Part shown: positions 5,037-20,454 of the stretch, piece after piece
Layout of the letters: every line of letters begins with the position of its first letter
Position numbering within the stretch: position 1 is the first letter of the stretch
Source: Acrasis kona
Lineage: Eukaryota; Heterolobosea; Eutetramitea; Acrasida; Acrasidae
DNA length: 25,505 nt
Reading direction: 5' to 3'
Assembly: GCA_026419775.2 (NCBI GenBank)
Contig: JAOPGA020001081.1
Location: 1 to 25,505 of the forward strand
Position numbers and translations under genes: made by a program
Notes under the pieces: model-generated
Told to the model about the DNA's origin: nothing
Database searches by the model: none
The model's input: only the letters and a program-made list of their open reading frames with translations

Positions 5037-6324
5037 ATGAGAACCTTAGGCATCGAACAGTATCGAAGCACAAGTAACGACGATATAAAGACATGCAAGC
5101 AAGACTTTCCTTTCCCGTCCCTTCCCTCCCATCATTTATTCAAACAAGATGTTGTTTCGGAGCTTCCTTCAAGATACGAGCTCAAGGAACTAATAGGGAA
5201 GGGCGCCTACGGCTCGGTATTTACATGCAGAGATACTCTGACCGATACTTTTGTAGCTGTTAAAAAAATATCTAATGTGTTTGAAAAAGATTTTGACTTT
5301 CAAAAAAGAATGTACAGGGAAGTAAAGATACTAAAGCACATCCAAAACAAACATCCCAACGTAATTAATCTCATCGACTTGATAAAACCGTCAAGTTACG
5401 ATGATTTTGAGCACATTTACATTGTTACGGAACTAGTCGACGATAACTTACATGATGTGCTCAGGGACCAAAGGTATCGTTATTCTACCGAGCAACAAAC
5501 CAATTACTTCCTCCATCAATTACTCGGTGCCATCAAGTTTCTCCATGACTCTGACATTGTTCACAGGGACATTAAAGTGAGTGTTTTTTCCATCTCATCC
5601 ATTAACATCATTCCAGCCATCTAACATTTTACTGTGCGAAACAGGAGTGGTCAAGTTGTGTGACTTTGGATTGAGCAGAGAATCGTTCAAAAACACCAGA
5701 AGGAATTCCACGACCAACGTCGTGACCAAGCCCTACAGAGCGCCAGAACTACTTTTGGATTATGAATTGTACTCGAAGCCAGTAGACATGTGGAGCGTCG
5801 GTTGTGTATTTGCAGAGCTACTCAACAACGAGAGCGGTTTGCTGTTCGGCAGACCCAAAAATGACCAAGCCCATCTCAACGCCATTGTTGATTTGTGCGG
5901 CACCCCTAACCACGACGAAATCAAGGGCGTGTGTGGTGGGGTCAAGTACATTCGGTCGCTCGACTCCCGAGACAAGGCTGATTTGACCAACGTTTTTCCT
6001 AACGTGAGCGACTGCGCTCTGGACCTGTTGGAGAAATTATTGAGGTTCGATCCAGATCAACGCATCACCGTAGATCAGGCATTGGCTCATCCCTACTTTG
6101 AAATGTTTGATGTGGAGGAAGGGGCTCCAAAAAGTAATAAATTCCAATGCGATGACATGTTGTATAATAGAGTTCCTGCTGATGGCAGTGATTTGGATTG
6201 GATGAAGAGAATGATTTATGACGAGGTGATCAGTTATGAAGGTGGCGACGGGTCCCCTGTATCTCCTCTTAGTTGTATTAATAGTGTTATGGTTCCTCCG
6301 CCTCAGCTCACGAGACACTGCTAG
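5037..6324 (+). CDS. MAPK-like serine/threonine protein kinase with atypical activation loop
   Basis: Exons 5037-5576 and 5617-6324 flank a 40-nt intron and give 415 aa. Visible kinase motifs are the glycine loop GKGAYGSV (54-61), the ATP-anchoring Lys76 in VAVKK, the catalytic loop HRDIKPSN (176-183, with Asp178), DFG (196-198), YRAPELLL (220-227), VDMWSVGCVFAELL (236-249) and LLRFDPDQRITVDQALAHPYF (321-341). The LLEKLLRFDP...RIT..QALAHPY block and the short acidic tail (FDVEEGAP) are MAPK-like within the CMGC kinases. The MAPK TxY dual-phosphorylation motif is replaced by T212-T213-N214, and the usual Trp before YRAPE is Pro219. All catalytic residues are present, so the enzyme is probably active but regulated differently. 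The HRDIK/PSN motif is split exactly by the intron, which supports the splice. Confidence 0.9.
5577..5616 (+). other. Spliceosomal intron, 40 nt
   Basis: GTGAGT...TTCCAG splits the kinase catalytic loop between HRDIK and PSNILL. Removing it restores the invariant HRDxKxxN motif in frame. Confidence 0.95.
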
Positions 6325-6413
6325 AAAATGTAAATAAATGTAACACTTGTATGAAAATTTGATGTATTTTTTTTGAATTTTTAGTTTTTAATGGTGATTG
6401 TTCTTTTGAAATG

Positions 6414-10081: not shown

Positions 10082-10164
10082 ATTAATGATTATTCAATTA
10101 ATTTTGTTTTACTGGTAAAACCAAAAGACCTTCTTGTTTAATTTCAATTTTACCGGTAAATCTA

Positions 10165-10182
10165 CAGGGGGGTCCACCTTGG
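10165..10182 (+). repeat. Left terminal inverted repeat
   Basis: CAGGGGGGTCCACCTTGG is a perfect inverted match to 16527-16544. It is preceded by TA at 10163-10164. TGCGGT (10187-10192) and GAAATGAGCTA (10193-10203) are subterminal motifs shared, inverted, with the right end. Confidence 0.95.
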
Positions 10183-10344
10183 ATTGTTGCGGTGAAATGA
10201 GCTACGCTAAAATAAATTATTATTTTTAAAATAATATTGCCCGATTACTATATTAGGGTTCATATCAGGAGGAACGTATTCGAGGTATATGCACAAGGTA
10301 ACAACGTTTTCAATTTCTCATATGAGAATTTAAAGACAAACAAT

Positions 10345-11433
10345 TTATTTATTGGTTGTTTTTGACTTTTTTGATATCTTTTTAGGGTTTGGCCTTAGTG
10401 CATTTTGTAGCGGATCGGACCTTTTGCGTGGCAGTGTTGATATAGCATTAAAGAACGAGTTTTTGTCAGTAAAGAAGACTAATGAAAATCTATCTCCAAC
10501 AACGTTTTGATTATAATGGTAAATGTTTGCTGCATCAAAATGTACAAGGTCCCCTGCTTCTGCATCAAACCCCGTGAGAACGTTATCCAATATTAGTTCT
10601 GCCCTGCTAAATTCTCCAAATGGTACAACAAATGCGTGGCCGAACTCAGGGTCTGCTTCATCCATGTGTCTACTTGTTGTTCCATAGTTAATAGCAACAC
10701 AATTAAATGGTGCAAACTTTGATATCTCATTATTGTTAGCACATTTGTATGCTTCAAATAAATGTGGCATCTTCTTTTTAACATAATCTGTTATAGTACT
10801 GAATAGTCCTGACTTATCGTTTTGTTCTAACCATTTTTGTGAATGCTCATTTTTTGTTTCTGATGTTGTGAATACAAATTTCTGGTACTTCCTCCAGCTC
10901 CCAATGTGATGTACCGCTTTCACATTCTTCACCTCTTCTTCTCCTGATTGTGGGGGTAATGCCTCTGCAAGCAGCAATGTGGAATTGTATAGTACTTGCA
11001 TCATTTCCTTTGTAAAAATGTTCTTCGACAACTCGGCAATTATCCCACCATTTGGATGGTGCATCGCGTAATTACACTTAAACACTTTGTAGTCCCTTCT
11101 TTTAAGTAGCGTGTAAAATGCTTCTTTTGAACCCTGTGGTGATTTATGATTGAGAACAAATCCTAATTCTTTCACAGCCACATTTGTGACTGTGTTTTCA
11201 TTTGAATCTGTTTGACGATTAACCTCTTCACTATCATCCATTGAGCTGATTGTTTCATCTACATCTCTCATACCAGAGGTGTCAACCACACCTACTGAGC
11301 CTATAACGTTTACTGCATCCATTTTGTCCAAACTTTCAACTATGAGGGGCTTTTCATGTACTTGTATTATTTTCTTTGCTCTGTTCGAAAATAATTCACA
11401 CTGCTCCTCATCAAGTGACTCGAACTTTTTCAT
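10345..11433 (-). CDS. TET/JBP-like 2-oxoglutarate/Fe(II) dioxygenase carried by the transposon
   Basis: The 362-aa product has a C-terminal double-stranded beta-helix dioxygenase domain (about 240-325). The iron ligands are His256 and Asp258 in RHMDEAD and the distal His306 in IYHYNQN; Arg315 in GDRFSLVFF is the expected 2-oxoglutarate-binding residue. FNCVAINYG before HxD, VVPFGEF, a LILDN segment, then AGDLVHFDA, follow the order seen in TET/JBP enzymes, which oxidise 5-methylcytosine or thymine. The first 100 residues are acidic and low-complexity, and the tail is basic (KKISKKSKTTNK), possibly for DNA binding. The ATG at 11431-11433 lies directly after an in-frame TAA that ends the 73-aa ORF. 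The role in transposition (altering base modification of the element or target) is inference; the substrate cannot be read from sequence. Confidence 0.8.
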   Translation of the reverse strand: MKKFESLDEEQCELFSNRAKKIIQVHEKPLIVESLDKMDAVNVIGSVGVVDTSGMRDVDETISSMDDSEEVNRQTDSNENTVTNVAVKELGFVLNHKSPQGSKEAFYTLLKRRDYKVFKCNYAMHHPNGGIIAELSKNIFTKEMMQVLYNSTLLLAEALPPQSGEEEVKNVKAVHHIGSWRKYQKFVFTTSETKNEHSQKWLEQNDKSGLFSTITDYVKKKMPHLFEAYKCANNNEISKFAPFNCVAINYGTTSRHMDEADPEFGHAFVVPFGEFSRAELILDNVLTGFDAEAGDLVHFDAANIYHYNQNVVGDRFSLVFFTDKNSFFNAISTLPRKRSDPLQNALRPNPKKISKKSKTTNK

Positions 11434-11655
11434 TTAAGGCGATTTTCCCTGATACTTTGCTAAATGAAATTTACATACAAACCCATCCGGTACGGTTGTT
11501 ACGTCAGGATTTTCTGATAATAGAACCTTTAAAATCCTATGCGTTAGTGAATGTGATGGAGTTCCAGAAGCATTTGTATAAAATCTCCCCTTTCTGTGTT
11601 TGACAACTGTCTTTGTAGAGCAGCAGGAGCACACGAATTGTCTGTTTTTTGACAT
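11434..11655 (-). CDS. Small C2CH zinc-binding ORF immediately upstream of the dioxygenase
   Basis: 73 codons from an ATG at 11653-11655 to TAA at 11434-11436. Cysteines at 9, 11 and 12 and the Cys61-x2-His64 pair give a C2CH spacing (about 49 residues between pairs) reminiscent of THAP-type DNA-binding fingers, but I do not see the other THAP residues. It is in the same frame as the dioxygenase, and the TAA is the only codon between this ORF and the dioxygenase ATG. It may be the N-terminal DNA-binding domain of that enzyme reached by readthrough or splicing, a separate protein, or a domain cut off by a nonsense mutation. A possible intron from GTATGT inside this ORF to an AG just past the dioxygenase ATG would remove the stop in phase but also the Cys-His pair. 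Confidence 0.55.
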   Translation of the reverse strand: MSKNRQFVCSCCSTKTVVKHRKGRFYTNASGTPSHSLTHRILKVLLSENPDVTTVPDGFVCKFHLAKYQGKSP

Positions 11656-11829
11656 TACAATAAATACTTTTCAACAGTGGAACTGTTTTTTGGATAATAT
11701 TTAGATAGATGCAAGCTAAATTCTTGTTTATACAGAATGTACTCACACTATAGATGTATAATATTGAGTCAAACTGTTGGTAACACTTTGAATACACTTA
11801 ACAAAATAGCTTTGACTGAAGAATTTATT

Positions 11830-14800
11830 TTACATAATGATAGAGTCATGATATTTAATACTTTCTCTACCTTGATATCGTGTTGGCTTAGCCAATGATG
11901 AGTTATAAATATTATTACGGTTATTAGACATTACGTATGGCACTATATTTAACGAGAAATCATCTGATGCACCTGCTTTTGTCCCATCCATTATATCTAA
12001 ATAGTAGAATGTGTTTAAAATGCCACTAAGATCATAATCTTTTAAAAACAAATATCCAATTTCATCATATATATCTTCGATCAAAAATTGATATCTGCAT
12101 ATATCGTTGTCACTAAAATATTTGCACATCGTTTTTGCAATAAATAACACCCAATAACCACAACTCCAATTGTCGTTTTGGAATCCATCTTTAAACAACC
12201 GTTGAAAATGGAAATTTTCATTTATAACATTTATTTCAAGTAATGCATTCTCTAGCTGTGCATTGTTCCCAATTGAATCAAAATAAATGCAATATACCTT
12301 GTTATCATAAGTAAAACAAGTTAGAGAGGTGTAATGTTGCATAAACAAAAAAACATAATAACAATAACTGTTCGTTTTAAGCACTTCGCAGATGTTTCTG
12401 TAGATATCTGATTCGTCATACACACCTTGGTCTTCGTATTGAAAATATTCTCGAACAATAAAGTTCCCATTTTCAAATATCTTGTTCAATACCGAACACA
12501 TTGTTGTGACGTTCAAACGAAAACCTGGTGTACTAGTATCAATACTATCTGGGTAAATGCTAAAATTGTCATCAAAGTTAGTTGTAGCACCCTCAGAGTT
12601 TGGTCTTCTTATGCACTTTGGGTTTTTTTGTCTAGAATGACAATTTAGCCCACAAAGTCTGTTGGCAACCTTGCAAGGACATTTAATAGTTGCACATTTG
12701 CTACTTGATCTACACAAACAATGGCCTGGGTCATCTAATTTGGCCCTTTTGTTCACCTGTTTAGTTTTTTCAATAGACTCTAGCTCTCGTTTCTTGTGTT
12801 TTATTGCAGGGTTGAGACTGTTATTTTGTTCAGAGACAGGTTCTGCTGTTACAATATCATCATACTCATCTAAATAGTCAATTGCAGCATTTTCTTCCAG
12901 GTCATCAATTTCAATATTCTCATCGTCATCGAAGTTGTTATCGTTCTCAATATCTTCATTTGGTAGGTTCAATCTATTGATAATATAACTGACAATATCT
13001 CTGTGGTGATGTAATATCACATCATATGTCATTTGAACATCCCATTCCGCTCTATGATGTATTGATGAACTATAACTAGCCTCGCCAAAACATGAAATGA
13101 ACAAATCCTTCAACTTCTTTGATTTCTTTACTTGTCCCTCTACTGTGACACCATCTACAAAAGACATTGTGTCTAACCATATCCAGTCTTTATCCCATTC
13201 CTTTTGCAATGTCTTATCAGCCCAATAATCAAGTCTAGACTTGTCAAACTTGCAGTTATGACCAAGTATAATTGGAATTGCTCTACCATTGTTTGTCAAG
13301 TAAGATGCTAGGAGCTCTAATGCCTCGTCCATTTGAACTGCATCTTCAACCATAGAAGGAGTAATTCTATGTGCTTTTGTTATTGCTTGTTTACTCCACA
13401 TTGCAGAATTGGTACTGTCAACAATAATTGGTAAGATCTGAGGCCCTGGATTAACTAACAACGTTCTGATACAAGGGTCGTTAAAGGAGTTTACAGCTAT
13501 TTGAACAATACCAGCAGTTTTAGCTAAACTGGTTGTTTCAATATCAATAATTACTATATGATATTGTTTCCCATTATGAATGTCTGTATCAAAAACTAAA
13601 TCTTCACAGTCAAATTCTTCACTGACCAGAATTACTGTTTCGTCTGGAAGTTGGCTATTAACTTGCTTTGATAGTGGTTGTAGATCAATGCCTAGTTCAC
13701 TCTCATGTATGACAGCTTTAATAATTGACTTTGCAGCAAAATAAACAGCATCTGATTTTTCAGCACCATTTGCCAAATCACTTCTGAAATTCACCTGTGA
13801 CTCAATATGTGACAAAATACATGATCGCTGAATTTCATTTGCAATCGCTTTTGCTGATTTTCCACTAGCATCGACTTCTTTGAAATGCTCAACAGTAAGA
13901 TGAGTGACTAAAGACCCTAGCATTTTATATGGTTTATGCCCACAACTCTCGTATATGCATTGAAATAATACACTTCTTCTATGACCATGTATATTTCTTA
14001 CTGTAGGATCATGTCGACCTGCTGTTCTAGCATTTAGTTTCTCTTTTCCTTGCTTTGATAAAACCGGTTTATTTGAATCTCTCTTTGGGATTTTGTGAAT
14101 ATTAGGGATATCAGGCAATGGTAAAACAACATCTAACGAATTGTAACATTGTGTAGGACCAGGAGGTGGCAAATTTATCAATCTTTCTTTCGGGTCTGCA
14201 TGAATATTTTGCAGTACCCACCATGCATATCCATATGTATTAATAAACTCTCTAGCAGTTGGATATGGTACCTTTGATCGAACAACACTAAATGTATGCT
14301 CAACAGTTAGAGTTGAAAGAGATGATAGCTTTATAAATTCTCCAATCCTAGTGTCAAGAGCTTTTCCTTTTCGTTTTAGAAACTTGATAAGTGATTGACA
14401 TGATGTACAAAAGCTTTTAACTCGGAAAAAAGTCCTGTCGTCAAAATTATTTCTACTGTGACCTTTACCTCCACCTGCTCTTCTTTGAGGCTTAGTTGTG
14501 TTTATTTTTGTAAAGTAGTCTAGAGTCTTTTGTAGTGCAGTCATTTTCTCGTTTAAAGACATTTGATCATTAGGTATTCTCGGAATTTCATATATGTTTC
14601 TGATATTTTCCAGAAATTTTGATAATACTTTTGAAATATCAGTACCAATATCTCGCAATACTGTAACAACTTTTGGGTTCACAATGTTTTTCAAATGTTT
14701 GAAGTTCATTACATCACTAGGTGACAAGTCATCTGATGATAAAAGACTTGATAACTCTCCATGTGTACCATGTAAGGTAACTAAATCTGATAAACGTATA

Positions 14801-16335
14801 GGTACAACTACATCTTTGCCACTAGAGTCTTTGATAACATCATAGAATGTCCTTGTTTTGAAAGCATTTCGCAAAGATTTGGCAAGGTGTTCAGCATCAA
14901 AGATATGAAACCAATTGTTTTTAAATGGTCGAGACAGGTTCCAACTGTTCATTTTGGTTAAAAAATCCTCGTTATGGACTAAATCACCATCTGAACTACT
15001 GCCAATAAACTGCATGTTCTCATCTTCCAGTTCTTCTACAATATGTTTTATTTTCTGCATCACCCATGCATCAGTGTTGTTATCCTTGTATAATTTATTT
15101 TCAACATGAACCCATAGGCCAACTGGAAGAGTTATTTGACCACATATACTAGTAGCTTTAAACACACAGATCTTATTCCCAAGTTGTCGGTCCAGATCAA
15201 TGTCACTCATTTCTTCAAATTCTTGAAACGTTAAGATTTTTTCCCCCCCTACAATGAAATCATTCCATGCCTCATACCCTGCTCGTATCTCCATGTCATC
15301 ATAAGAAATTATGTAATATGGTGAAATAAACTTCTTGGACCTTTCAGTATTGATTTTTTCTTTTGTAACAGCAAATTTAGTTTTGTCAACTAAACCATAC
15401 CAGCCCTTTGGAGTTCTGCTTTTCAACATACTGACAGACACGGTGAACAAATTTTTATTTAAGGAAGTATGAAAAGCTTTGTTAATCTTACTGCTATTGG
15501 AACCACCACCCAAAACATCAAACACTTTCGTACCAGCATAATATCGAACCAACAACCAAAATCTCAACATTGTATCGGAGTAACGAGTTGCATATGGTGA
15601 AACCCCCATGTTGTTTAACATGTCAATTATCATTTGTTCTTGGAAGTTATTGTCAAAGTGGCCTTCTAGTACTTTATTAACAAAGAGCTTGATAAGATCT
15701 GCTCTTTTGTTATTTGTTTCTTGACTAATGGAGCTTGATGGTACAGGGACAAAGGCAGAGTATTCTTTTATTACACTTTGTGCAGCTTCAAGTTGAGCAT
15801 CTGCAATGTGTGGCATGATTCGCAAATGCTTGGATTCTGATTTACTAAAAGAATATTTGTCTGACATCTGTGAATTTAATCGTTTCAACTTTTGTGTCAA
15901 TAAAGCTTTTGTTTTGGCACACTCTTCACACACATTTGATCGTTGTTGCTTCAATCTTTTACATTGTACGGAACGTATTCTGTTTTGTACCCTTATGGCC
16001 ATTACAACAAGCTTAGTAGCAGCACTAGTCGTCCCAGAGAGAATGTTCCCATAAGGATCAAGTAAAGTTTCAAAATCTTTCAAATCTAGACCTATGCAAT
16101 GTACATTCAACCTCTCAAAATCTGTACGTTGGGAACAGTAGGTCTGATGTCTTGCAATATTGGTTGATGATTGGAACCTGTGACAGTAGAAGCAGGCAGT
16201 TAATAATGGTGATTGACAAATCTCACAACTGACGGACCAATCAAAGTTAATATGGTGTGGATCAGCGATGCATTGTTTTTGTTGCGTATGCAGTGAATAT
16301 TGTTGTTCATTTAAATGGTCAACATGTGTTTGCAT
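11830..16335 (-). CDS. 1501-aa transposase with DEDDh exonuclease, CXC and Ulp1-like protease domains
   Basis: Domains in order. N-terminal zinc finger: C37-x2-C40, C48-x2-C51, H62, C67, plus VCEEC (136-140). RNase H-type core: candidate acids Asp346/347 (ISYDDMEI), Asp449 (GSSSDGD), FDAEHLAKSLRN (479-490, like the DpHLxKxxRN of P-element transposases) and Glu679 (LTVEHTFSVVRS). C2H2 finger: C793, C798, H812, H817. DEDDh exonuclease (about 926-1115): Asp931 and Glu933 (DIETT), Asp1031 (GHNCKFD), His1094 and Asp1099 (HRAEWD), all present. Acidic linker and basic KHKKRE. CXC zinc cluster: 1206-1241. Ulp1/C48-like protease: His1334, Asp1353 (YFDS), Gln1386 and Cys1392 (NWSCG). It has one exon and its ATG sits about 190 bp inside the right end. 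AATAAA follows the stop. The exonuclease may trim ends and the protease may remove SUMO-like tags from host factors; both roles are inference. Confidence 0.88.
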   Translation of the reverse strand: MQTHVDHLNEQQYSLHTQQKQCIADPHHINFDWSVSCEICQSPLLTACFYCHRFQSSTNIARHQTYCSQRTDFERLNVHCIGLDLKDFETLLDPYGNILSGTTSAATKLVVMAIRVQNRIRSVQCKRLKQQRSNVCEECAKTKALLTQKLKRLNSQMSDKYSFSKSESKHLRIMPHIADAQLEAAQSVIKEYSAFVPVPSSSISQETNNKRADLIKLFVNKVLEGHFDNNFQEQMIIDMLNNMGVSPYATRYSDTMLRFWLLVRYYAGTKVFDVLGGGSNSSKINKAFHTSLNKNLFTVSVSMLKSRTPKGWYGLVDKTKFAVTKEKINTERSKKFISPYYIISYDDMEIRAGYEAWNDFIVGGEKILTFQEFEEMSDIDLDRQLGNKICVFKATSICGQITLPVGLWVHVENKLYKDNNTDAWVMQKIKHIVEELEDENMQFIGSSSDGDLVHNEDFLTKMNSWNLSRPFKNNWFHIFDAEHLAKSLRNAFKTRTFYDVIKDSSGKDVVVPIRLSDLVTLHGTHGELSSLLSSDDLSPSDVMNFKHLKNIVNPKVVTVLRDIGTDISKVLSKFLENIRNIYEIPRIPNDQMSLNEKMTALQKTLDYFTKINTTKPQRRAGGGKGHSRNNFDDRTFFRVKSFCTSCQSLIKFLKRKGKALDTRIGEFIKLSSLSTLTVEHTFSVVRSKVPYPTAREFINTYGYAWWVLQNIHADPKERLINLPPPGPTQCYNSLDVVLPLPDIPNIHKIPKRDSNKPVLSKQGKEKLNARTAGRHDPTVRNIHGHRRSVLFQCIYESCGHKPYKMLGSLVTHLTVEHFKEVDASGKSAKAIANEIQRSCILSHIESQVNFRSDLANGAEKSDAVYFAAKSIIKAVIHESELGIDLQPLSKQVNSQLPDETVILVSEEFDCEDLVFDTDIHNGKQYHIVIIDIETTSLAKTAGIVQIAVNSFNDPCIRTLLVNPGPQILPIIVDSTNSAMWSKQAITKAHRITPSMVEDAVQMDEALELLASYLTNNGRAIPIILGHNCKFDKSRLDYWADKTLQKEWDKDWIWLDTMSFVDGVTVEGQVKKSKKLKDLFISCFGEASYSSSIHHRAEWDVQMTYDVILHHHRDIVSYIINRLNLPNEDIENDNNFDDDENIEIDDLEENAAIDYLDEYDDIVTAEPVSEQNNSLNPAIKHKKRELESIEKTKQVNKRAKLDDPGHCLCRSSSKCATIKCPCKVANRLCGLNCHSRQKNPKCIRRPNSEGATTNFDDNFSIYPDSIDTSTPGFRLNVTTMCSVLNKIFENGNFIVREYFQYEDQGVYDESDIYRNICEVLKTNSYCYYVFLFMQHYTSLTCFTYDNKVYCIYFDSIGNNAQLENALLEINVINENFHFQRLFKDGFQNDNWSCGYWVLFIAKTMCKYFSDNDICRYQFLIEDIYDEIGYLFLKDYDLSGILNTFYYLDIMDGTKAGASDDFSLNIVPYVMSNNRNNIYNSSLAKPTRYQGRESIKYHDSIIM

Positions 16336-16526
16336 TACTACATTTTCATAAAGTCTTAAGACTCGTTGTCAGAACTGGATATTTAAAATGTGTGGTTATT
16401 TTTATAATCTCTAATTGGGAAAATGCTTTTTAATATAGAAACTTTAAAATAAATATTTATTAATTTAGATGAGACGTCAACTCAAAATTCTTCATAGCTC
16501 ATTTCAGATTTTATTTAACCGCACTA

Positions 16527-16544
16527 CCAAGGTGGACCCCCCTG
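16527..16544 (-). repeat. Right terminal inverted repeat
   Basis: CCAAGGTGGACCCCCCTG is the exact inverse of the left end and is followed by TA at 16545-16546. On the minus strand it is followed by TGCGGT, a 12-bp spacer absent from the left end, and GAAATGAGCTA. Confidence 0.95.
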
Positions 16545-16771
16545 TATATTTCATGTATGAGCAACATTGTGGGAATAACGGTGGGAAATCTTTTTTTGTT
16601 AATGATGTTTGACATTTACCCGAAAAGTCAAGTTAGAGATTATCGCCTCCAATTGGACAGCTGTTCGGAATCTTTTACAATCAATAAGTATGTCAAGTAG
16701 CACCCCTGCTGATTTGAGTAAGTTCCCTGGTTGCAAAAATTCAAATATATACCAAAGTCACTTTCGTTTAA

Positions 16772-17635: not shown

Positions 17636-18739
17636 ATGCCCTTCTTTGGCTCTAGAGCGTTGAAGGCATCAAGAGTAGAAATAGCAGAACCAGAAGCAGA
17701 GGCCATGATGAATGATGATGGTGTGTGTGTGAAAGTATTGTTTTCGAACAATTTAACACATATGTTTCACACACCCAATTTATACCCAGAATATTGTAAA
17801 CTCGTTGAGCAACAATAAAAGCTCATTTAATTAGTATAAGGTTACTACTGTTAGTCCTATGGAAACAGTGATAATCAGGACGTGACGTACGAGAACATTG
17901 TACCAAAAGCAGAAGAGTTGATATCAAAGTTAAGCATCCCCGTCATACAGCGCGGTGAAAACGAGGACAAATCCAATTATTACTTTATAACGAACAAGGC
18001 AGAAGAGTTTACTGCAGAAGGACTTGAAATTGTAAATTAATTATGATTTAGTACTCACATTGTTAAGACCGGACCAAAACCTTTACTTGAGCCGCAATAT
18101 TTTTTGAAGAACGAGTTATCGAGAGAAGAGAGGGTACTCGGTTTGATCGCCTCTCTTGATATTTACGAAGAACACGAACAGAAGCTTGCCTCAAATTTAA
18201 TTTCGATTTTTGGGAAAGATATGGCAAAACAAACGTGCATCGACTTGTGTAAACTACTTTTGAAAAGAGCGCCGGAATCACTTGTCAGGGATTTGTACCT
18301 CGACATTTTCGGAAGGTACAATTTCTCATCCGTTGTTGAAGAGATGCTTGACATACTGTCAGAAACTGCAATCCTTGAAGCACTGGCTGATTCTGCAAGT
18401 TTTTCAAATACAGAAGCTGTTCCAACGTTGATGAAATATTCAAGAGTAACAAATAAAATGATCAATATAGCACTGATAGAAGCTGCAAGGAGTTCAAACA
18501 CAAAAGCTATTTCATTGTTGATCAATGATTCGAGAGCAACATCTAATGCGATCAATGAAGCATTGGTGGAAGCTATAGAAAGATCATGTACAGAAGTTGT
18601 TTCAATGTTGATCAATGATTCAAGATTAACATCTGATGCAATTAATAAAGTGCTGGTACTAGCTGCAGGTTATTCAGAACCAGAAACTTTTTCAACCTTG
18701 ATCAATGATTCAAGAATAATAATAATAATAAATATATAA
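17636..18739 (+). CDS. Ankyrin-like 30-residue repeat protein, 5' part, disrupted by an insertion
   Basis: Proposed exons are 17636 to about 17803, 17879 (or 17855) to 18031, and 18068-18739. The last intron (18032-18067, GTAAAT...GTTAAG, 36 nt) is well supported: exon 3 has no ATG and joins in phase to an exon reading DVTYENIVPKAEELISKL. The first junction is less sure because its donor is weak. After a helical N-terminal region come 30-residue repeats of the form x-V-S-M-L-I-N-D-S-R-x-T-S-D-A-I-N-E-A-L-V-x-A-A-x-x-S-x-T-E, seen three times plus the start of a fourth. These resemble divergent ankyrin repeats (ALxxAaxxgxxExVxxLLxDpR). The frame then runs into the ATT-rich end of a foreign insert and stops at 18739. 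The protein is probably a scaffold; no enzymatic domain is visible. Confidence 0.65.
18032..18067 (+). other. Spliceosomal intron, 36 nt
   Basis: GTAAAT...GTTAAG. Removal links the exon ending TAEGLEI to the exon beginning TGPKPLLEP in phase 0 and bypasses the stop at 18038. Confidence 0.75.
18704..18719 (+). repeat. Target-site duplication, left copy
   Basis: AATGATTCAAGAATAA, identical to 19677-19692. The bases on either side differ, so the duplication is exactly 16 bp. Confidence 0.85.
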
Positions 18740-19676
18740 GTTTATTGGGTACAAGTGTCGTGTAAACGAAAAGCGTCATCATCCCAAAGGGTCGGATGTT
18801 ATGACAGGTAATGAGTTGGTCTATCTTTTCGTGTATGGTTAGTTTCTTTTTTGGCTTTTTCTTCTCGGTTGGGGGACTCAACTCAACGATGTCGTCATCA
18901 CTCCCGTCACTTTCGAAGTATTTGTAGATAGGTTTAGGTGGGGTCAGGGGGGTGTTTTGTCTCTTAGGTGGTGTGCTGGGTCTCTTAGGTGGTGTAGTAG
19001 GTCTCTGGGGTGGTGTAGTGGGCCTCTTGGGTGGTGCGTCTTCTTGGGATTTCTCGTAAGATTGGACTGCTCTTGAAATTTTGATTGGTAGTTGTGCTTC
19101 CAACATAAGGGTTGCCTTGATGTTTGGAACCGACCATGTTCTTTTCTTGATGAGTCTGCTTATTGCTTTAATGTCGTTTGAGCATACTAGCAGGCTTTTT
19201 GGGTTCTCGTCGTTGATCCACATTGGGCCGCTTTCGAATGTGTCCTGGAGTTCGCTAAGTAGTTCGTTGATAGATCCCCTGTCGTTTATGATGTTGCACT
19301 TTAGCGCTAATAAGCTGATGGTTGAGGCTTCTTTGAAGAAATTTCTTGTGGGAATGAGTTGGATGTTTTCTGGTAGCTCACTAATCTCAGACAGGAACTC
19401 TCTATCACAGTCTTCTTTAAAGTAGAGCTGGTGGTGTTCATCAATTGAATTTTTAAACACACTGCATCCATTTTGGATTAGAGAGTGGTTTGCGTTTTGG
19501 AGGAATTCGTTGAGATCTTTCACTGCGGTGTAGAATTGGGTTGCGTTTAGGGCCTGACCTTCTGCATCGTAGAGATCAAAACACTTTAGGTTAGGGTCAA
19601 TGTTGGATTTCCAGCAGGGGAGATCTACACTGTTGAGGGTATCCTGGTAGTAGTTTGCGTTCTCTTCTGAAGTAGT
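18720..19676 (-). mobile_element. 957-bp insertion with 16-bp target duplication, probably a 5'-truncated retro-insertion
   Basis: The insert sits inside one repeat of the ankyrin-like gene and is flanked by perfect 16-bp direct repeats. It has no terminal inverted repeats. At its left end it carries a TAA/ATT simple repeat (18720-18732). On the minus strand this lies just after an AATAAA, as expected of the 3' tail of a target-primed retro-insertion. The minus-strand reading frame is open from the very first base at the right end, which suggests 5' truncation. A 16-bp duplication plus a short-repeat tail is typical of non-LTR retrotransposition. No reverse transcriptase is visible in what remains, so the parent could be a LINE-like element or a retro-copied gene. 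Confidence 0.75.
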
Positions 19677-19692
19677 AATGATTCAAGAATAA
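19677..19692 (+). repeat. Target-site duplication, right copy
   Basis: AATGATTCAAGAATAA, identical to 18704-18719 and in the same codon phase of the interrupted gene. Confidence 0.85.
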
Positions 19693-20273
19693 CATTGGAT
19701 ACGATCGATGAAGCAATGGCGGAAGCTGCAAGAAATTCAAATACAGAAGTTATTCCAATGTTGATGAGTGATCCAAGATTAACATCGGATACGATCAATG
19801 AAGTACTGGTACTAGCTTTAGTAAGATCATATCCAGATGATGTTTCAATGTTGATGAATGACCCAAGAATAACATCAGATGCGATCAATGAAGCGCTGGT
19901 ACTATCTGCAAGAAATTCAGGAAGAGCAGATGTGTTCAAGACATTAACGGATGATGTAATAGTATTATTGGATGAGATCAATGAAACATGGACAGAATCT
20001 ACAAGAAGATCAAATACAGAAACTATTTTAATGTTGGTAAATGATCCGAGAATAACATCGGATACGATTAAAGAAGCACTGGTGGGAGCTGCTAGATATT
20101 CAAAGACAGATGCTGTGTCGGCGTTGATGAATGATCCAAGGGTAACATCGGGTGCGATCAATGAAGCACTGATAGAAGCTTCAAAGAATGCTGACATCAA
20201 TGTTCGATCAGATATTATTGATATGTTAGAATCTAAAGGAATTCCTTCAAGCATCAAACCTTCTTTCAAATAA
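19677..20273 (+). pseudogene. Ankyrin-like 30-residue repeat protein, 3' part, separated from its start
   Basis: The frame continues the repeat gene beyond the insertion, with at least five more 30-residue units (LMSDPRLTSDTINEVL, LMNDPRITSDAINEAL and so on). It ends with a C-terminal cap (KNADINVRSDIIDMLESKG) and a stop at 20271-20273. It has no suitable ATG start, because the true start lies upstream of the insert. One unit (about 19920-20010, KTLTDDVIVLLDEINETW) is divergent. Unless the 957-bp insert is removed from RNA, this part is not translated. Frame and repeat period across the two halves agree exactly when one 16-bp duplicate and the insert are ignored, so the break is recent. Confidence 0.7.
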
Positions 20274-20454
20274 AAAGTACACACCATCTGGTTTCCACCT
20301 CTCTAATTCTAAATCCTCAATAAAAACAACTTGTTGAGTTCTAAATTTATTGATTACACCCTTCTTCCTATTCTTTACACTCTCAAATGCGATATTACTG
20401 GTCATGAATATTTTGATAAAGGATATATATTTATTTTTAATACACAAACAACAA

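Follow-up and report, generated by a model that had tools for sequence, protein, structure and literature searches.

A P-like DNA transposon family in Acrasis kona with a TET/JBP-type dioxygenase as its probable second gene

Introduction

TET/JBP genes have been described in 11 fungal DNA-transposon lineages, with hosts in Basidiomycota and Ascomycota, and P is not among the lineages listed (Kojima 2025, PMC12730594). In these elements the TET/JBP gene lies within the inverted ends, TET types have been swapped among elements, and an escape from methylation has been proposed; the main text of that paper mentions neither Ulp1 nor CXC nor an exonuclease. In this study, we analysed a contig of the heterolobosean Acrasis kona (GenBank assembly GCA_026419775.2, contig JAOPGA020001081.1), whose whole length of 25,505 nucleotides is called the window and which is labelled C539 among the contigs of this genome. 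Within it lies an element of 6,380 bp with two genes, one for a multidomain transposase with a P-like DDE core and one for a TET/JBP-type dioxygenase. It is likely, in our judgement, that this element represents a cut-and-paste family with a P-like DDE transposase, 8-bp target duplications, and the TET-type dioxygenase as second gene.

Other described transposons share parts of this composition. In KolobokD, the transposase is of the DxxH group and is accompanied by a DEDDh exonuclease (PMC9587614); Kolobok elements are described as having a TTAA target, 5'-RR (RR/YY) ends and, in all but Kolobok1, a zinc finger between DxxH and E. Target duplications are 8 bp in the P element and 7-8 bp in Galileo (PMC8230255, PMC4168063), and in the KDZ group (Zisupton, Dileera, Kyakuja) Zisupton makes 8-bp duplications and has TET partners (PMC12730594). 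Compared with these, the family described here resembles the fungal TET-bearing elements in the features given above, but its host is not a fungus and its transposase type is not on the published list. It has the DxxH group and the DEDDh exonuclease in common with KolobokD, but not the TTAA target, the RR/YY ends or the zinc finger (four sequences compared), and no TET or Ulp1 is known to us from KolobokD. With the P superfamily (P element, Galileo, THAP9) it shares a DDE core with D(2)H, near-equal catalytic spacing and the duplication length, but it adds an exonuclease, a CXC-like motif, a protease and a dioxygenase, and shows neither a THAP or P profile nor a significant target palindrome. 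The 8-bp duplications and the TET partner are shared with KDZ elements, but no KDZ profile is among its Pfam matches and its core motifs are P-like. CXC and Ulp1 domains are known near KDZ elements, and an association of KDZ and TET in fungi was reportedly described by Iyer and colleagues in 2014. The solved TET-like dioxygenases NgTet1 and CcTet show profile similarity to the dioxygenase over the metal-binding part, but are not reported as part of such a transposon type.

A literature search, which covered open-access papers and left Repbase and most subscription journals outside its scope, brought up no publication in which a P-like core is combined with these parts. Because TET transposons (in fungi) and the DEDDh exonuclease (in KolobokD) have already been described, we see the novelty of the family in how its parts are combined, and probably in its host group, but do not regard it as a system of a new kind. 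The first-pass annotation of this DNA, made from the sequence alone, had proposed a new transposon family joining all of these parts; the mobile family and the unreported combination stand, but the 11 fungal lineages and the KolobokD exonuclease narrow the claim of novelty.

Structure and mobility of the family

The element, its ends and its genes are as follows.

10165..16544, no strand assigned: the element, 6,380 bp, bounded by inverted ends
10165..10182, plus strand: left terminal inverted repeat, 18 bp, with an exact copy elsewhere in the genome
16527..16544, minus strand: right terminal inverted repeat, 18 bp, perfect partner of the left end
10345..11433, minus strand: TET/JBP-type 2OG-Fe(II) dioxygenase, 362 amino acids (aa); H256, D258 and H306 invariant in 12 relatives, R315 in at least 90%
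11830..16335, minus strand: multidomain transposase, 1,501 aa, from the open reading frame (ORF) and its relatives
10165..10318, plus strand: left piece of four 358-362-bp deletion copies (element 1-154)
16339..16544, plus strand: right piece of the four deletion copies (element 6175-6380)

The inverted ends, CAGGGGGGTCCACCTTGG, are perfect over 18 bp and 96% identical when extended to 25 bp, and the two ORFs of at least 120 aa between them both lie on the minus strand, as the first-pass annotation had stated. Further copies and empty sites, whose absence it had named as refuting the family, were both found. In the genome searched (37.35 Mb, 1,021 contigs), the 18-mer end with up to three mismatches gave 28 matches, 12 of them exact, against one for a reversed-pattern control. 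In four copies of 358-362 bp (on C66, C188, C295 and C672), positions 1-154 of the element are followed directly by 6175-6380, and the internal deletion junction is the same in all four. The element has CAGG ends, and each of the four deletion copies is flanked by a perfect and different 8-bp target duplication (TATAAAAG, TGGATCAT, GAAATTTG and GTAATTTG). When the two flanks of a copy were joined with one duplication removed and these 140 bp searched in the genome, C188 gave three matches across the full 140 bases (97-98%), C295 gave one (97%), and with C66 three matches extended over 136-138 bases (84-91%) and a fourth over 111 bases (95%). These matches, obtained for three of the four deletion copies, represent related target sites that lack the element. 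The C672 query gave partial, repeat-like matches only, and target palindromes of the P type were not significant (12/35 pairs, P=0.16). Shared ends, deletion copies with duplications, and empty sites show that the family is a mobile cut-and-paste DNA transposon.

The flanks of the window copy itself are these.

10157..10164, no strand assigned: left flanking 8-mer TAAATCTA, equal to none of the right-end flanks read
16545..16552, no strand assigned: right flanking 8-mer TATATTTC, identical to the 8-mer beside a left end on C255

The two 8-mers do not match, so the window copy has no target duplication; the annotation had called it a complete transposon, which holds for the ends and the two ORFs but not for the flanks. 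Matching flanks are likewise missing at the ends of C149 and C361, and at those of C515 and C761, two short end-pairs of related families, and all of these weigh against the family as we read it. Given that the flanks of the window copy differ and that TATATTTC recurs on C255 next to its left end, we most simply read the window copy as recombinant or mis-joined, its flanks coming from two insertions through recombination or through the assembler; no match in the genome spans the join of the C255/C539 flank pair. The pairing of TET gene and transposase therefore rests on the relatives. It is in the relatives that an assembly chimaera, in which the TET half and the transposase half of the window copy come from different insertions, can be weighed. 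Such a chimaera would account for the unmatched flanks and for TATATTTC adjoining a left end on C255, whose interior differs, and it deserves to be taken seriously, but we think it unlikely, since C361 has the same gene order between two ends, C149 has it with a diverged TET-like gene, and the adjacency of both genes recurs on C677, C919 and C558.

On C255 the likeness to the element stops 175 bp in from the end. The sequence beyond this point was considered as an alternative cargo and rejected, since it is repeated in the genome (29 matches, its own among them) and is read by us as a nested insert. On C160, as on C255, only about 125-175 bp of one end are common, followed by other sequence.

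Two-gene order in the relatives

The host genome contains 39 matches to the 1,501-aa protein and 52 to the dioxygenase. Six members with 36-52% identity to the window protein have the core, the exonuclease, the cysteine motif and the protease together wherever these regions are covered, and of the near copies of the window element, C715 is degraded (81-88% protein identity, many stops) and C359 is cut off by a contig end. A TET-like gene lies downstream on the same strand at seven of 14 further transposase 3' ends (C361, C677, C919b, C558, C149, C314 and C919a), or 8/15 with the window, the copies on C677 and C919 being truncated or broken. The order of transposase followed by TET-type dioxygenase is thus repeated in the relatives. 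The TET gene stands between two ends in the window, in C361 (45295-51520) and, as a diverged TET-like gene, in C149 (108436-114831), the last two being bounded by the ends CAGGGGGGTG and CAGGGACGTG; none of the three has matching flanks. Two results count against a regular two-gene element: no TET-like gene was found within 1.5-2.3 kb downstream of the other seven transposase 3' ends (C231, C715, C196, C118, C815, C96 and C59), and on C147 the dioxygenase and the transposase are on opposite strands.

Five shorter elements, on C31, C222, C296, C552 and C676, of which three were found with both ends, retain a piece of the TET gene (element positions ~1106-1165) and parts within 1499-1731, which comprise the intergenic gap and the transposase 3' end. 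Deletion of an element with two genes would be expected to leave such remnants.

The second gene of C149 deserves separate mention. The transposases of C149 and C361 are related (nonsynonymous divergence dN 0.18, synonymous divergence dS 1.3), and C149:113201-114532 (plus strand; in L010 and L077) appears to encode a diverged TET-like protein, perhaps with a BRCT-like tail. It matches the TET profile weakly (21 bits; hhalign E 3e-4) and the C474 TET protein at 1e-6 in a single BLASTP comparison, and no significant match was found in PDB or Pfam.

The dioxygenase might also be a mere passenger that does nothing for the element, whether a gene of the host or a foreign one, trapped between the ends by accident. 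The seven transposase 3' ends at which no TET-like gene was found in the stretch examined, and the other TET genes of the genome, which lie away from this transposase, are what a passenger would predict. We nevertheless consider a passenger quite improbable, for the gene has the same position and orientation with three transposase types besides that of the window (the C361, C149 and C558 types), and the related transposases of C149 and C361 are accompanied by very different dioxygenases, as if the slot must be filled. In addition, recent pairs have dN/dS values under 1 (0.35, 0.42 and, over a short piece, 0.73; one broken copy is among them), and the five shorter elements retain dioxygenase remnants in order. 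A dioxygenase that serves the element remains our preferred reading.

The same flanking sequence occurs beside opposite ends of related copies, at the dioxygenase end on C361, C677 and C147 and at the transposase end on C578, perhaps through independent insertions into one repeat in both orientations.

Searches of 5.8 billion proteins gave no transposase homologue among the matches listed (about 8,000), where the protein of the window was likewise absent; for the dioxygenase they gave the protein of the window only. In viral contigs (4 loci) and prokaryote contigs (at least 10 loci), all matches are to the exonuclease stretch alone.

The transposase and its superfamily

The following parts of the transposase were distinguished.

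14236..15318, minus strand: P-like DDE core, residues 340-700, with D346, D449, D480xxH483LxKxxRN and E679; no Pfam match
13018..13554, minus strand: DEDDh (DnaQ-type) exonuclease, residues 928-1106; RNase_T E=4.3e-6, 2p1j by profile 9.7e-5
12613..12720, minus strand: CXC-like cysteine-rich motif, residues 1206-1241, by cysteine pattern; no Pfam match
12145..12351, minus strand: Ulp1-type (C48) protease motifs (H, D, Q, C), residues 1329-1397; 7fiu profile match E=0.0028, no Pfam match
16135..16227, minus strand: N-terminal Cys/His motif, residues 37-67; by Pfam not a THAP domain

A P-element sequence that agrees with 6p5a at 423 of 424 residues was aligned with the core. In two of three MAFFT modes its D230, D303, D339xxH and E531 fall on D346, D449, D480xxH483 and E679, and in the third mode three of the four motifs do so. 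The catalytic spacing is 103/31/199 in the family and 73/36/192 in the P element, compared with 70/40/199 reported for human THAP9 (PMC8230255) and 88/34/193 for Galileo (PMC4168063). The HLxKxxRN and VEHxF motifs of the core fit P as well, so that the D-D-D(2)H-E signature with P spacing that characterizes the P superfamily is present. The 8-bp target duplication also agrees with P, yet it is common to hAT and Zisupton and so is not specific.

Several results speak against P membership. Pfam scans of the window protein and its family gave no P-superfamily profile match to the core, residues 1-200 contain no THAP domain by Pfam, and PF21787 found nothing in the genome, in a search that gave no match anywhere. 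Comparison by hhalign with the single P sequence was weak and confined to the region of the E motif (score 28.9, probability 5.4%, best of 150 shuffles 27.2; 0.6% in another run); a global hhalign alignment was also tried and yielded nothing sensible. Because of the missing profile match, the missing THAP domain and the weak hhalign result, the core is called P-like and not a P element, a label drawn from sequence motifs. The first-pass annotation, which had likewise proposed a P-like core, is borne out for signature and spacing, but not by any profile.

The transposase may instead belong to another superfamily, Kolobok or KDZ, its likeness to P being common to the whole DxxH group. The exonuclease of KolobokD, the duplications and TET partners of Zisupton, and the lack of P profile matches fit such a placement. 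It seems rather unlikely to us, however, given that the CAGG ends and the four different 8-bp duplications do not agree with the TTAA target and 5'-RR ends of Kolobok, that no Cys or His besides H483 is kept between D480 and E679 in all four aligned cores, that no KDZ profile is among the Pfam matches, and that the spacing and the motifs HLxKxxRN and VEHxF do agree with P. The superfamily, together with the roles of the accessory domains, is the least certain point of the P-like reading that we keep.

The accessory domains named in the annotation were recovered. The exonuclease gives an RNase_T match of 27.8 bits on the window protein (cut-off 24 bits), six of six members match at E<=1, and the family profile matches 2p1j at 9.7e-5; the DEDDh residues are supplied by the motifs DIETT, HNCKFD and HRAEWD. 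For the Ulp1-type protease, the family profile matches the ULP_PROTEASE structure PDB 7fiu (E=0.0028), and no Pfam match was found in the region. The CXC-like motif is identified by its cysteine pattern alone and has no Pfam match; of six aligned members, five cover the region, and all of these keep the pattern.

The dioxygenase and DNA methylation

A dioxygenase profile was built from 12 stop-free relatives, namely 11 of the 52 genome matches (window included) and one further Tet_JBP match. This profile matches NgTet1 (2.2e-8) and CcTet (2.5e-7) over the metal-binding part, and 11 of the 12 relatives match Tet_JBP at E<=1; the window dioxygenase alone, too diverged, gave no Tet_JBP match in Pfam. 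The HxD...H...R residues of TET/JBP dioxygenases are present, and together with the profile similarity they place the protein in the TET/JBP group, as the annotation had held.

The genome as a whole contains at least 56 Tet_JBP matches, 19 of them over the cut-off and many away from this transposase, which amounts to a large TET/JBP expansion; one TET copy is closest to CcTet. ORFs beside other TET genes (L059 2-1234, L049 66-1268 and L046 1-1176, all minus strand) were examined for transposase type, and we take them, by their motifs, to resemble CACTA/tnp2 and SWIM-finger MULE transposases, which Pfam did not confirm. If these readings are right, several transposon types in this genome carry TET genes.

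Elements of the family show CpG decay. Three elements have CpG observed/expected ratios of 0.51, 0.54 and 0.53, against 0.82 and 0.78 for the window flanks and, for two host genes, 0.91 and 0.84. Counted at codon boundaries, the ratio is 0.47 for ORFs of the elements and 0.83 for the other ORFs of the window, and the share of NCG among NCN codons is 0.064 in the elements against 0.131, a host methyltransferase gene being also low (0.076). In three sets of near-identical element copies, transitions were found at 45/252 CpG, 77/2,432 other C/G and 23/4,519 A/T positions (CpG versus other C/G, P~1e-17), the comparison being made within element copies. Two values run the other way: immediately downstream of the C149 element, already beyond its end, CpG observed/expected is 0.65, and the 360-bp copies with the ends of the window copy, a further set excluded from the transition test, have 0/18 CpG and 4/98 other C/G transitions. 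The depletion and the transitions fit the footprint expected of methylated CpG. C5-methyltransferase domains occur in the host on six contigs (ten matches, all over the cut-off), and with the CpG footprint they would fit a role of the dioxygenase in escape from methylation, a role suggested by analogy with the proposal made for the fungal TET-bearing transposons.

Alternatively, the dioxygenase may act on another base (N6-methyladenine, 6mA, or thymine) or on RNA rather than against silencing by 5-methylcytosine. For CcTet, which the profile matches at 2.5e-7, activity on 6mA has also been reported (PMC12730594). The decay at CpG and the C5-methyltransferase domains of the host make another substrate improbable in our view, but they are compatible with further substrates, and 5-methylcytosine is the substrate assumed in what follows.

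Proposed role of the two genes

In the simplest scenario, the P-like core would cut and join the element ends, the fused exonuclease would trim DNA ends or aid gap repair, and the CXC-like and N-terminal Cys/His motifs would bind DNA. The Ulp1-type protease may act on proteins of silencing or repair by stripping them of SUMO or a similar modifier. The dioxygenase would oxidise 5-methylcytosine placed by the host on the element, which may restore expression of the element or access of the transposase to its ends. The fused exonuclease and SUMO-type protease suggest that a single protein handles DNA ends, silencing and repair.

On a broader scale, we lean, with modest confidence, towards a distinct P-related lineage outside fungi in which exonuclease, CXC-like motif and SUMO-type protease are parts of one protein with the transposase, in which the second slot was filled repeatedly by varied TET-like dioxygenases, and which was selected to carry a methylation-countering enzyme. 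If this is true, demethylase-type enzymes have been taken up by transposons of a lineage, and in hosts of a group, that are absent from the published list, and the strategy is broader than fungi. The C5-methyltransferase domains of the host, with the CpG footprint of the elements, make it directly testable whether a transposon-borne TET enzyme erases silencing.

Genomic setting

The neighbours of the element resemble eukaryotic genes, among them SDE2 and a Band_7/SPFH protein. Window positions 18104-20287 consist of 90-bp tandem repeats, and the ORF 18104-18739 there codes for ankyrin-like repeats. The enolase of this genome is most similar to animal enolases and more distant from that of yeast, which, with the flagellar gene named below, would suit a flagellated protist rather than a basidiomycete or ascomycete. 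A search of the genome for chitin synthase 1 gave no match, and found none in any control either. The genome does contain a match to the flagellar RIB43A gene (E=7.6e-100).

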